A stretch of 64,000 bases of DNA from Fuerstiella marisgermanici (GCF_001983935.1 NZ_CP017641.1:3906001-3970000); one strand, 5' to 3'; counted from the stretch's first letter, positions 58,525 to 60,979 are shown. Made by a program: numbers and translations. Notes: generated by a model from the sequence alone, not told the origin.

Positions 58525-58598
58525 TAAGAACCGGGAGAAATAAGCGACTCGGGTGGTTTTCGTTACAAGAGAAGTAACCCAAGCCTGCACCGTCCCGG
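58525..58598 (-). ncRNA. Y RNA-like element 4, plain hairpin head
   Basis: Leftward RNA with the shared module. Closing helix CCGGG/CCCGG; 5' strand ACGGTGCAG; inner helix TTGGG/CCCGA; 3' strand with ATTTCT directly before the closing helix. The head is a small stem (GTTAC/GTAAC, loop TTCTCTT) and has no tRNA features. It follows the Ro60 stop codon by 53 bp and a separate 10-bp hairpin (58612-58646). I infer that it is a Ro60-bound Y RNA because the same module precedes Ro60 three times. Confidence 0.7.
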
Positions 58599-58611
58599 CT
58601 GTTTCAAGATA

Positions 58612-58646
58612 TGGCACGGCGAACGGGAAGTCCATCCGCCGTGCCA
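58612..58646 (-). other. 10-bp hairpin in the Ro60 3' region
   Basis: TGGCACGGCG pairs with CGCCGTGCCA around a 15-base loop, starting five bases after the Ro60 stop codon. There is no U-tract; it may protect or process the mRNA 3' end, leaving the following RNA element free. Confidence 0.5.
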
Positions 58647-58650
58647 CAAT

Positions 58651-60555
58651 TCAGACCTGCTGATAACGTGACCGCAAGACTTCGATGGCAGGGACCTCGA
58701 CGGCCTTCTCAGGTTCGTCGCTGCTTCCAGCTTCGATGTCTCGAATCATCTCGAGCAGCTTCTCCGACCATCCTGACAACAGATGAGTCCGATCATCACT
58801 CGGTCGCAACTGGCTCTGCCCGTGTCCGTTCAGGTTTACCGAATACACGAAACAGTCCTTATTGACAGCCTGACGATAACGATCGACCATCGACTGCATT
58901 GTCGCCTTCTTGCCGAAGTGCTTCTCCAAGTTGACTCCACAGTTCTGTGCCGTGCCGTTGTCGCCTTGCGTGTAACAACACAGGTCAGACAGGAAGATCA
59001 TGCGATCCACATGAACCTTCCGTTTTGTGAGGTCATCAATTGAGAACCACAATCCCGTTTCCGTTCCAGCGCCGACTCCCGATCCCTTTTGGTATTCAGG
59101 GATCGCCAACGCACCATTTTTGCTTCGCTCTTCTGTAAGAGCCACCGCATCGATCTGATGCTTGATTGCCATGCAGCTATCAGCCTGTGAGAACGGAACC
59201 CACATGCTGCTGTCACCGAATACTCCAACAATTGCTCGACGGCCAAGACGCTTTGCCAAGACCGCCGACAGCATATTGCCGCAATCGGAAACTCGGATTC
59301 GAGACTTACCACTGATCGCACAACCAACAGCACTTCCGCTGTTGTCGGTCAGAACCATCGTGATGCCCGGTAGATCCGCAACATTCTCGACAGCACGATC
59401 CAGCATCTTACCCATCACGGTCTTTGCCGCCGTTGACGAGACTTCTCGTTCAGCAGCAAAGAATCGGAATGGTAACTGCACCGTATCGGCAACCGAGAGC
59501 AGCCGCTCATAGATCAGATCCCATGCGGCATCTGAAATCTTCGCTTGCTCAAAGTTACGCAGGTTGCGAGTGAGAGCCATCTCTCCCATGACTGGAATAC
59601 ATAACTCCCAAACATCCTTAGAACTTCCCAAGTGCGAAACGACGTTTTCCCATGTCAGGCCAGCGTCCTTCACCAAATCCAGCGTCACATCAGAAGCTTT
59701 CGTTGTAGCGAAGAACTTCTTCCGTGCCTCAAGAATTGGCGGCAGGTTTTCAACGTACTTATCGTTCACGATGTACTCAAACATCGCTTTGCTGACAGGC
59801 CAGTTGTCTCGCTGCTCGCCCGTTGCCTTCTCCAGATACTTGCCGATGGCCTTTGAACCACCAACCATCAGAAGAACGTCACGGAACGTCGGACGATCCT
59901 TGCCGTTGTACTTCAATAAGTTTGCATCACGCTGATCTGCCAGTGACAAAGCCAGCGCCTTACGCAGCACATGTGGCAACGCTCCACGATGCCCACGAGC
60001 CTTCCGACCAGACTTCGCATCAGCAGTCTTCTGGTCATCGCCCGCAGCCATGAACAAGTGACGGAATGCTCCGAACACCTGACGGATTTCATCGGCTCGT
60101 CGCATGATCAACTTGGCATACTTTGGCACGAACGCTTTCGTTTGCGAATGTGCAGCAGCAAGGGCCAGCATGATCTGCGGAGTGCTTCGCAGCTTCAGGC
60201 CGTTCTTTGTGTCACGAGCCCATGCAGCGATCACCAACAGGTCTTCTGGTGAATCACCGTTCGCAACAGCCGTAGCAGTCTCCAAGACTTCCCGTGCCTG
60301 CTCCGTCAGTCCCATCTCATCGACAATGGTTGAAGAGATAGAACCGGTGGAGAACAGTTCACGGTAAAAGTCGGCAGCGTTGCGGTTGCTGTCGTAATAC
60401 TTGGGCTCGTTGAAGAACCCACCACCGATTGTGTGAATCAGCTTGGTGACCGGGTCGCCAACATTGTAGGCTCGGCCCGGTACGTGCTTGTGAGCAACCT
60501 GCTCGGCATGTGCTCGGTCGTGTACTGAAGTCTTCTTGATTCCAAACTTTGTCAT
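58651..60555 (-). CDS. rsr: Ro60/Rsr (TROVE and vWA domains) RNA-binding protein
   Basis: 634 aa. The TROVE HEAT-repeat ring covers about residues 30-370 and the C-terminal vWA domain begins near 395 with the MIDAS motif DNSGS (404-408) and LSDLCCY near 525. Ro60 binds the ends of misfolded RNAs in its ring and Y RNAs on its outer surface, and in bacteria takes part in RNA quality control and maturation. It is about 100 residues longer than Deinococcus Rsr. ATG 60555 is preferred (GGGAGG eight bases upstream). It is embedded among four Y RNA-like elements, strengthening the assignment. Confidence 0.95.
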   Translation of the reverse strand: MTKFGIKKTSVHDRAHAEQVAHKHVPGRAYNVGDPVTKLIHTIGGGFFNEPKYYDSNRNAADFYRELFSTGSISSTIVDEMGLTEQAREVLETATAVANGDSPEDLLVIAAWARDTKNGLKLRSTPQIMLALAAAHSQTKAFVPKYAKLIMRRADEIRQVFGAFRHLFMAAGDDQKTADAKSGRKARGHRGALPHVLRKALALSLADQRDANLLKYNGKDRPTFRDVLLMVGGSKAIGKYLEKATGEQRDNWPVSKAMFEYIVNDKYVENLPPILEARKKFFATTKASDVTLDLVKDAGLTWENVVSHLGSSKDVWELCIPVMGEMALTRNLRNFEQAKISDAAWDLIYERLLSVADTVQLPFRFFAAEREVSSTAAKTVMGKMLDRAVENVADLPGITMVLTDNSGSAVGCAISGKSRIRVSDCGNMLSAVLAKRLGRRAIVGVFGDSSMWVPFSQADSCMAIKHQIDAVALTEERSKNGALAIPEYQKGSGVGAGTETGLWFSIDDLTKRKVHVDRMIFLSDLCCYTQGDNGTAQNCGVNLEKHFGKKATMQSMVDRYRQAVNKDCFVYSVNLNGHGQSQLRPSDDRTHLLSGWSEKLLEMIRDIEAGSSDEPEKAVEVPAIEVLRSRYQQV

Positions 60556-60581
60556 TCCTATGCCCTCCCGCTCCATAAACT

Positions 60582-60670
60582 AAAAAAAACTGCTGAAGAA
60601 ATCACCGGCATGGGGAATGGGATTCGAACCCAATGGTTGCCAGAAGTATCCCGTGCCTGCACCATTCAGC
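60582..60670 (-). ncRNA. Y RNA-like element 3, T-arm-only head
   Basis: Closing helix GCTGA/TCAGC, followed by CAG and a T8 tract (60582-60589), so it may be its own terminator. Module strands ATGGTGCAG and ATTTCT are as in the other elements; the inner helix is ACGGG/CCCAT. The head is a single tRNA-type T-arm (GGG-TTCGAAT-CCC core) without D-arm or acceptor 5' strand. It lies 27 bp before the Ro60 start codon. Confidence 0.8.
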
Positions 60671-60689
60671 GAGTGCATATGGAGTAAAC

Positions 60690-60830
60690 TAAAACGCCAG
60701 AGAAATCATCGGTCAGAGACTATTTCGATGCTCTGCCAGTTGAGCTACGTCCGAGCTTGGCTCAGACCGTGGGGCTCGAACCCACAACCGTCGAATTCAA
60801 GAAGTAACTCTGTCCTGCACCATCTGGCGT
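60690..60830 (-). ncRNA. Y RNA-like element 2 with circularly permuted tRNA head
   Basis: Closing helix ACGCCAG/CTGGCGT (7 bp) and inner helix CAGAG/CTCTG. The head is a tRNA in permuted order: anticodon-stem 3' strand TTCGA, 5-base variable loop, T-arm GTGGG-TTCGAGC-CCCAC, acceptor 3' strand GTCTGAGC, a 3-base cap, acceptor 5' strand GCTCGGAC, D-arm GCTC-AACTGGCA-GAGC, and anticodon-stem 5' strand TCGAA. The acceptor is capped and has no CCA end, so it cannot be charged. This matches the tRNA-mimicking YrlA module known in bacterial Y RNAs. A short T-tract follows. Confidence 0.88.
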
Positions 60831-60834
60831 GTAC

Positions 60835-60979
60835 AAAAAAGACCGGAGAAATCGTCGCCCAAAGTGTAAGTGCTCTACCAACTGAGCTACTGCCGCTTAT
60901 GAAAAAGAGCGGCAGGTGGGACTCGAACCCACGACCTCTTCATTAAGAATGAAGTAACTCTGAACTGCACCGTCCGATC
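60835..60979 (-). ncRNA. Y RNA-like element 1 with circularly permuted tRNA head
   Basis: Closing helix GATCGG/CCGGTC (one U-G pair) and inner helix CAGAG/CTTTG, a change relative to element 2 that keeps pairing. The head has T-arm GTGGG-TTCGAGT-CCCAC, 3' acceptor CTGCCGC, a 10-11-base connector, 5' acceptor GCGGCAG and D-arm GCTC-AGTTGGTA-GAGC. A local CTTCA/TGAAG hairpin before the T-arm shows a CTT loop as in tRNA-Lys, but competes with the module. A T6 tract follows the closing helix. It starts six bases after the stop codon of the 269-aa gene, so one transcript is likely. Confidence 0.88.

Follow-up and report, generated by a model that had tools for sequence, protein, structure and literature searches.

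A 64,000-nucleotide stretch of the genome of the planctomycete Fuerstiella marisgermanici (bases 3906001-3970000 of its 8.92-Mb single contig; GCF_001983935.1 NZ_CP017641.1), hereafter the window, contains one gene for Ro60, an RNA-handling protein that is shaped like a ring and also occurs in humans, and, on both sides of the gene, four Y RNA-like elements (E1 to E4) that share one lower module and carry different heads. We think it probable that gene and elements together form a Ro60 ribonucleoprotein cassette, in which one Ro60 is served by four Y RNAs with a common docking module and with heads that act as adaptors. The evidence comes from the fold and covariation of the module, its linkage to Ro60, the make-up of the heads, and the recurrence of similar arrays in other genomes.

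A covarying RNA module beside Ro60

The open reading frame (ORF) between the elements was identified as Ro60 (Rsr) because its TROVE match lies above the Pfam cut-off (59.6 versus 23 bits), because its metal site D-x-S-G-S, a metal ion-dependent adhesion site (MIDAS) of the DxSxS type, is intact, and because all 13 PDB matches that Foldseek returned for its predicted structure at E ≤ 1e-3 are Ro60 chains. These matches include 9kop, 2nvo (Deinococcus radiodurans Rsr) and 1yvp (a Ro-RNA complex), at E values of 1e-11 to 3e-14. On the DxSGS motif and the Foldseek matches of this model, which is of modest confidence (predicted local distance difference test score [pLDDT], 63.7), we attribute to the protein a HEAT-repeat ring and a vWA fold with a MIDAS. 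PHROG 850 (RNA-binding protein) matches residues 108 to 618, and a search of the whole genome with the protein's own sequence returned this ORF as the sole match.

An earlier reading of this DNA, made from the sequence alone, had proposed four leftward elements with two common strands, AYGGTGCAG and ATTTCT, between closing and inner helices. The minus strand, which also encodes Ro60, does carry all four elements with the strands quoted; the positions given in that reading pointed to the right places but were off by a few bases, and the corrected coordinates are listed in the table below. With the heads set aside, E1 to E4 align without gaps over 55 module columns that form two helices, in the order closing helix (7 bp), RYGGUGYAG, inner helix (7 bp), WUACUUC, head, inner helix, CGNNNAUUUCY, closing helix. 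The loop between the two helices is an asymmetric internal loop. The opening base of AYGGTGCAG and the final base of ATTTCT form a pair, A-U in 6 and G-C in 5 of the 11 elements compared, so that the closing helix extends over 7 to 8 bp. This additional pair, the full 7 bp of the inner helix, which starts directly after GGTGCAG, and a third common strand, WTACTTC, had been overlooked by the sequence-only reading.

Both helices pair and covary, as had been claimed. In the window's four elements alone, 95% of 60 pair cells hold standard pairs and 10 of 15 pairs show a two-sided change; when the partner strand is slid by 1 to 3 columns, only 29 to 52% of cells are paired and two-sided changes occur in 0 to 2 pairs. 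Over 11 elements (E1 to E4 together with D1 to D4 and P1 to P3 from two other genomes), 94.5% of cells are paired and 13 of 15 pairs covary. The alignments behind both sets of figures were built around the proposed structure and hence lean towards it, the guards being the slid controls and a genome-wide pattern count. The additional compensatory changes that the sequence-only reading had set as a check are therefore found beside other Ro60 genes (D1 to D4 and P1 to P3), and on this covariation the module is, as it had maintained, a selected RNA fold. In having a conserved stem formed by the two ends of the RNA, with an internal loop and apart from a variable head, the elements are like bacterial Y RNAs in the wide sense.

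Model R2, built from the other two genomes and free of window sequence, recovers E4 (55 bits, E 6.8e-10) and, run unfiltered over the 2.7-kb locus, E3 (25.5 bits, E 9e-5). It recovers neither E1 nor E2, because their heads of 80 to 90 nt fall outside the covariance models; a 5' pattern was therefore used for the genome-wide search. This 21-nt signature, GGTGYAGNNNNGRGWTMCTTM, has four matches in the whole 8.9-Mb genome, namely E1 to E4, so that all four lie beside the only Ro60 gene, where Y RNAs are expected to be encoded. Among 391 other planctomycete genomes it has 3 matches, versus 4 for a reversed control pattern. Model R1 found nothing beyond the locus in the F. marisgermanici genome at E ≤ 0.1; its stray matches in three other genomes, none of them a TROVE genome, were discarded as chance-level hits (best E 0.005 per genome among 392). 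By the signature count, the module is tied to Ro60 genome-wide. Its constancy, this linkage and the known anatomy of Y RNAs suggest that it is the Ro60-binding part.

Table. Features of the window (positions counted from its first base; -, minus strand; +, plus strand)
Feature	Position	Strand	Description and evidence
Ro60 (Rsr) orthologue, TROVE + vWA, 641 aa	58651-60576	-	Pfam, PHROG, DxSGS, Foldseek
Y RNA element E1, 141 nt	60840-60980	-	upstream of Ro60; permuted-tRNA head with anticodon arm (CUU); module alignment, ARAGORN, fold, Rfam
E1, 5' module strand	60958-60980	-	AGATCGG-ACGGTGCAG-TTCAGAG
E1, 3' module strand	60840-60864	-	CTTTGGG-CGACGATTTCT-CCGGTCT
Y RNA element E2, 137 nt	60694-60830	-	upstream of Ro60; permuted-tRNA head opened in anticodon loop; module alignment, ARAGORN, Rfam
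Y RNA element E3, 83 nt	60590-60672	-	upstream of Ro60; T-arm head; module alignment, unfiltered R2 match
Y RNA element E4, 72 nt	58529-58600	-	downstream of Ro60; short stem head; R2 match
269-aa protein	60986-61795	-	no Pfam, PHROG or NCBIfam family matched
3' half of tRNA-Arg(TCG)	14990-15079		next to putative tyrosine integrase ORF
Putative tyrosine integrase ORF	15184-16617		
IS66-like transposase ORF, copy 1	586-2046	-	copies 99.9-100% identical
IS66-like transposase ORF, copy 2	27023-28483	+	
IS66-like transposase ORF, copy 3	47970-49430	+	

Heads of the four elements

The head of E1 holds all tRNA arms in the order anticodon arm, T-arm, acceptor 3' strand, loop, acceptor 5' strand and D-arm. 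Its acceptor stem has 7 bp, its anticodon loop, TTCTTAA, is tRNA-Lys-like (CUU), and the 5' stem strand of the anticodon arm coincides with the ACTTC common to all modules. The head folds into the four expected tRNA hairpins (z -3.6) and, when de-permuted, gives an ARAGORN call at 592 of 2597 junctions tested, most commonly Lys(CTT) (401 calls). The head of E2 consists of a T-arm, an acceptor stem, a D-arm and a short anticodon-stem remnant, as in a tRNA opened in the anticodon loop; de-permuted, it is called at 180 of 2401 junctions, versus no call for the intact head and 0/3 for its shuffles. None of the shuffled heads (three shuffles per head) was called a tRNA. ARAGORN also called no tRNA in the window and none in any intact head tested, and native-order tRNA genes were rejected as the identity of the elements.

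The Rfam model of YrlA (RF02553) matches E1 with 38.8 bits (E 3.5e-7) and E2 with 25.5 bits (E 0.0025), and these are the only two elements with the T, acceptor and D arms of the YrlA type. Judged by sequence and predicted fold, E1 and E2 both have a circularly permuted tRNA as their head. The head of E3 is a T-arm only (GGGTTCGAATCCC), and E4 (fold z -2.5) has a plain short stem without a tRNA-like part. An ordinary, dissimilar tRNA-Lys(CTT) gene is present elsewhere in the genome, so E1 is a mimic rather than a missing tRNA; production of a functional tRNA-Lys(CUU) from E1 was dropped as the principal explanation for the same reason.

Related arrays and genomic setting

The closest Ro60 found in public genomes, 66% identical to that of the window, belongs to the metagenome-assembled genome DS2.012 (L007). 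Three elements lie upstream of its gene and one short element downstream, which is the window's 3+1 layout; the downstream element, D4 (L007 5886-5956), is the positional counterpart of E4. G049 (L003/L011) has three elements upstream of Ro60, which deviate slightly in the 3' loop. The second closest Ro60 found (56 to 59% identical) is encoded at 4989-6914 of a 436-kb viral contig (L006), and 1.2 kb downstream of it, at 8108-8182, is a two-helix RNA that ends in ATTTCT and the closing strand (fold z -5.0). Right after this RNA comes another, tRNA-like but enlarged in its anticodon region, for which ARAGORN made no call. One more such module was spotted by eye in G121. On the Ro60 tree, the proteins of the window, DS2.012 and the phage form a clade with 99/99 support; G107, G121 and G049 fall on the same side, on long branches that leave their placement unsure. 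The variant module (window, DS2.012 and G049 and, by eye, phage and G121) is found on one side of the tree, and most other Ro60 loci have a canonical YrlA-like module.

Of 392 Planctomycetota sampled, 32 have TROVE proteins. A scan of the flanks of 32 Ro60 loci, with the window excluded, for the two strands TGC...GNACTACATG and CTTCGTC together with a closing helix no shorter than 5 bp turned up about 70 Y-like elements, a count that, like those for single loci, is a lower bound, since some signature matches in G331 lie 3 kb upstream, outside the scanned stretch. The elements are upstream or downstream of Ro60 depending on the family, and the maximum is six per Ro60 (G315 and G039). These two six-RNA arrays extend from ~890 to 130 (L067, G315) and from ~1040 to 180 (L069, G039) bases upstream of the Ro60 start and include several head types. 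Four kinds of heads were distinguished by short motifs, and hence roughly (one G331 element filed as a T-arm is really short): short stems, permuted tRNAs, T-arms with or without an acceptor helix, and a 23S rRNA string.

The canonical module resembles that of YrlA (AUGC ... CUAC / ACUUGUC), and the module of the window looks like a divergent version of the canonical one (UGCNG ... GGRWUAC / NYUUC). The exact canonical signature has 13 matches in six of 294 genomes, all six with TROVE and all 13 matches within ~3 kb of Ro60; since part of these arrays served to derive the pattern, what counts is the lack of matches elsewhere, with none in the genomes without TROVE. A control pattern had no match in the 294 genomes. 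Bacterial Y RNAs with tRNA-like heads are already known, as are two Y RNAs in one bacterium (Salmonella yrlB and yrlA). The suggestion of the sequence-only reading that a set such as E1 to E4 is undescribed is not contradicted by the open-access literature, in which we found no set of three to six Y RNAs with unlike heads beside one Ro60; the main primary papers lie outside that literature, and the conclusion is provisional. The set is not, however, peculiar to this locus: arrays with one module and many heads recur at other Ro60 loci across Planctomycetota.

At 7 of the 32 loci, from three families, one element each carries the string ATGACGGTCCTAAGGTAGC(GA): L051 (G233), L052 (G391), L053 (G288), L054 (G424), L055 (G410), L067 (G315) and L069 (G039). 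All seven arrays sit upstream of Ro60, and the window's array has no head of this class. The string is identical over 19 to 29 nt to planctomycete 23S rRNA, with one substitution in G424, at a position that we take to be the helix 69-71 junction (helix numbers after E. coli 23S rRNA). A conserved 16-mer served to find the 23S rRNA, and the genuine 23S references come from G233 and G410. In the sequence of G000, G315 and G039 the exact 16-mer does not occur outside the arrays, and the rRNA is possibly masked or missing there. Among six elements compared, the string is 98% pairwise identical, whereas the remainder of the head reaches 59% and no other window of 19 columns exceeds 71%; the likeness to 23S rRNA is shown for the string itself. 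Nor did the open-access literature yield a report of an rRNA-like Y RNA head; the main primary papers lie outside that literature, and the novelty of such a head is likewise provisional.

Ro60 is absent from the seven congeners searched, as is the ORF upstream of E1. The tRNA-Arg(TCG) fragment of the window matches, identically over ~48 nt, the complete gene at 4.097 Mb and a further copy at 4.045 Mb. Together with the integrase-like ORF, it probably marks the attachment (att) site of an integrative element that includes the Ro60 cassette; this cassette has an att copy on either side and probably belongs to an island. The att copy in the window is inverted relative to the other copies, and recombination between oppositely oriented transposase copies could have inverted the segment.

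Homologues of the 269-aa protein, 44 to 71% identical, were found in 12 of 57 relatives; a link between its gene and Ro60 was rejected because the G049 homologue is ~3 Mb from Ro60. Around the cassette are SUFU, DUF6933 and SMI1/KNR4 (SUKH) proteins (57833-58456, 62607-63116 and 63138-63953); SUFU and SUKH are kinds often met as immunity proteins of polymorphic toxins. A 3141-aa open frame with long internal repeats (GTFxVxWxSxxQDG, PKD-like units) occupies 1087-10512 on the plus strand, and its start overlaps the opposite-strand IS66-like copy.

Proposed role, alternatives and known systems

In the cassette that we propose, the four elements would be transcribed as Y RNAs, and their common lower module would most likely dock on the outer surface of Ro60. 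By analogy with Deinococcus and Salmonella, each Y RNA may gate access to the RNA-binding surface of Ro60, and its head may tether or attract a specific partner, for instance PNPase or another exoribonuclease, or enzymes that recognise tRNA. The same Ro60 could be steered to different RNA substrates by the Y RNA that it carries. More tentatively, and with some doubt, planctomycete Ro60 as a whole may be a programmable platform: one dock on up to six or more Y RNAs, with heads that mimic permuted tRNAs, a tRNA-Lys-like RNA complete with anticodon, fragments with a T-arm, and the helix 69-71 junction of 23S rRNA, would produce particles that are sent to matching enzymes or that shield cells from nucleases. 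What the variable portion of a Y RNA does has been asked for a long time, for bacteria and animals alike. A constant dock with visibly different mimic heads makes head function directly testable at this locus, and the 23S-like heads of related arrays tie in concretely with the part that Rsr is known to play in the maturation of 23S rRNA.

Several observations weigh against a Y RNA cassette. A search of the locus for sigma-70-like promoters found none. E1 and E2 score below the YrlA gathering score of 69 bits, so they are not filed as Rfam YrlA. The canonical internal loop, UGCC / ACUUCGUC, differs from that of the window, so recognition of the window's module by Ro60 rests on linkage and co-occurrence. 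The modules of the viral contig and G121, which were spotted by eye, were not recovered by model R2, and none was found beside the Ro60 gene of G107.

The main rivals are nuclease decoys and cis-acting leaders. As decoys, tRNA- and 23S-like heads held on Ro60 would soak up tRNA- or rRNA-cleaving toxins or phage nucleases, and YrlA has been suggested to be a competitive inhibitor of an anticodon nuclease (PMC7790460). The whole tRNA-Lys-like anticodon arm of E1, the 23S rRNA string in other arrays, and the position of the cassette in a mobile, patchy region, with a relative on a 436-kb viral contig, are all consistent with such a role. Most heads, however, lack an anticodon loop, which is the usual cleavage site, and E4 and the short Y RNAs mimic nothing that we recognised; we consider decoys an unlikely explanation.

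Alternatively, the elements could act in cis, as leader structures within the rsr transcript rather than as separate RNAs, and let Ro60 or tRNA-binding enzymes control the expression of rsr. All of them share the strand of Ro60, E3 ends 13 nt ahead of its start codon, and no separate promoters were recognised. Yet E4, like D4 in DS2.012 (L007), is downstream of the gene, and in many other genomes the entire array is. In addition, E1 and E3 finish with the closing helix and a T-run (six T in E1), like independent transcripts, and the bacterial Y RNAs known so far are RNAs in their own right, encoded next to rsr, which makes leaders a rather poor prospect.

Another reading is that the elements are tRNA genes in decay, or a tRNA array close to an attachment site, and that the common strands are leftover repeats; it is invited by the tandem tRNA-like pieces and by the accessory region with its tRNA-Arg att fragment 43 kb off. 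This reading is highly improbable: the module helices covary, with 10 to 13 two-sided changes, which already disfavoured it, no native-order tRNA was called, the arms are permuted alike in several genomes, and the layout is kept at 66% protein identity. Equally hard to credit is that E1, with its four tRNA arms including the TTCTTAA anticodon loop, is a functional permuted gene that matures to tRNA-Lys(CUU) with the Y-like module as a processing scaffold, given the ordinary tRNA-Lys(CTT) gene and the heads of relatives, which differ and mostly lack an anticodon arm; we know of no bacterial maturation route for permuted tRNAs.

Among known systems, the Ro60 cassette can first be compared with YrlA: this RNA contains D, T and acceptor arms, serves DusA and TruB as a substrate, and connects Rsr with PNPase (PMC8394870, PMC7790460). 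Bacterial Y RNAs bind Rsr via their lower stem, and Y RNA, Rsr and PNPase make up RYPER (PMC8394870, PMC7790460, PMC4726728, PMC4030889). The window shares with YrlA a lower stem made from the two ends of the RNA, a permuted T-arm/acceptor/D-arm head and the location beside rsr (PMC8394870). Unlike YrlA, its RNAs fall short of the Rfam cut-off, have a different internal loop and form a set of four with unlike heads, versus two RNAs in Salmonella (yrlBA; PMC7790460); whereas YrlA is described without an anticodon arm, E1 has one, and E4 has no tRNA part at all.

The Deinococcus radiodurans RYPER likewise combines a Ro60 orthologue with an adjacent Y RNA, and both a tether/gate model and rRNA handling were described there (PMC4726728, PMC4030889); Rsr assists 23S rRNA maturation, which the Y RNA can restrain (PMC4030889). 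That system has one principal Y RNA, whereas the window has several head types. The Ro60s of phage G and Thermus phage phiLo are TROVE proteins on large phages, as is that of the viral contig with the ATTTCT RNA. Unlike the window, this contig has a single such RNA recognised, by eye, and the 5'-side loop of its module is different. In vertebrates, Y1, Y3, Y4 and Y5 have a conserved Ro60-binding stem and variable upper parts and share one common Ro60. Although the vertebrate RNAs have no sequence relation to those of the window and their heads are not tRNA or rRNA mimics, the two systems are alike in plan, with several RNAs, one constant stem and one Ro60.

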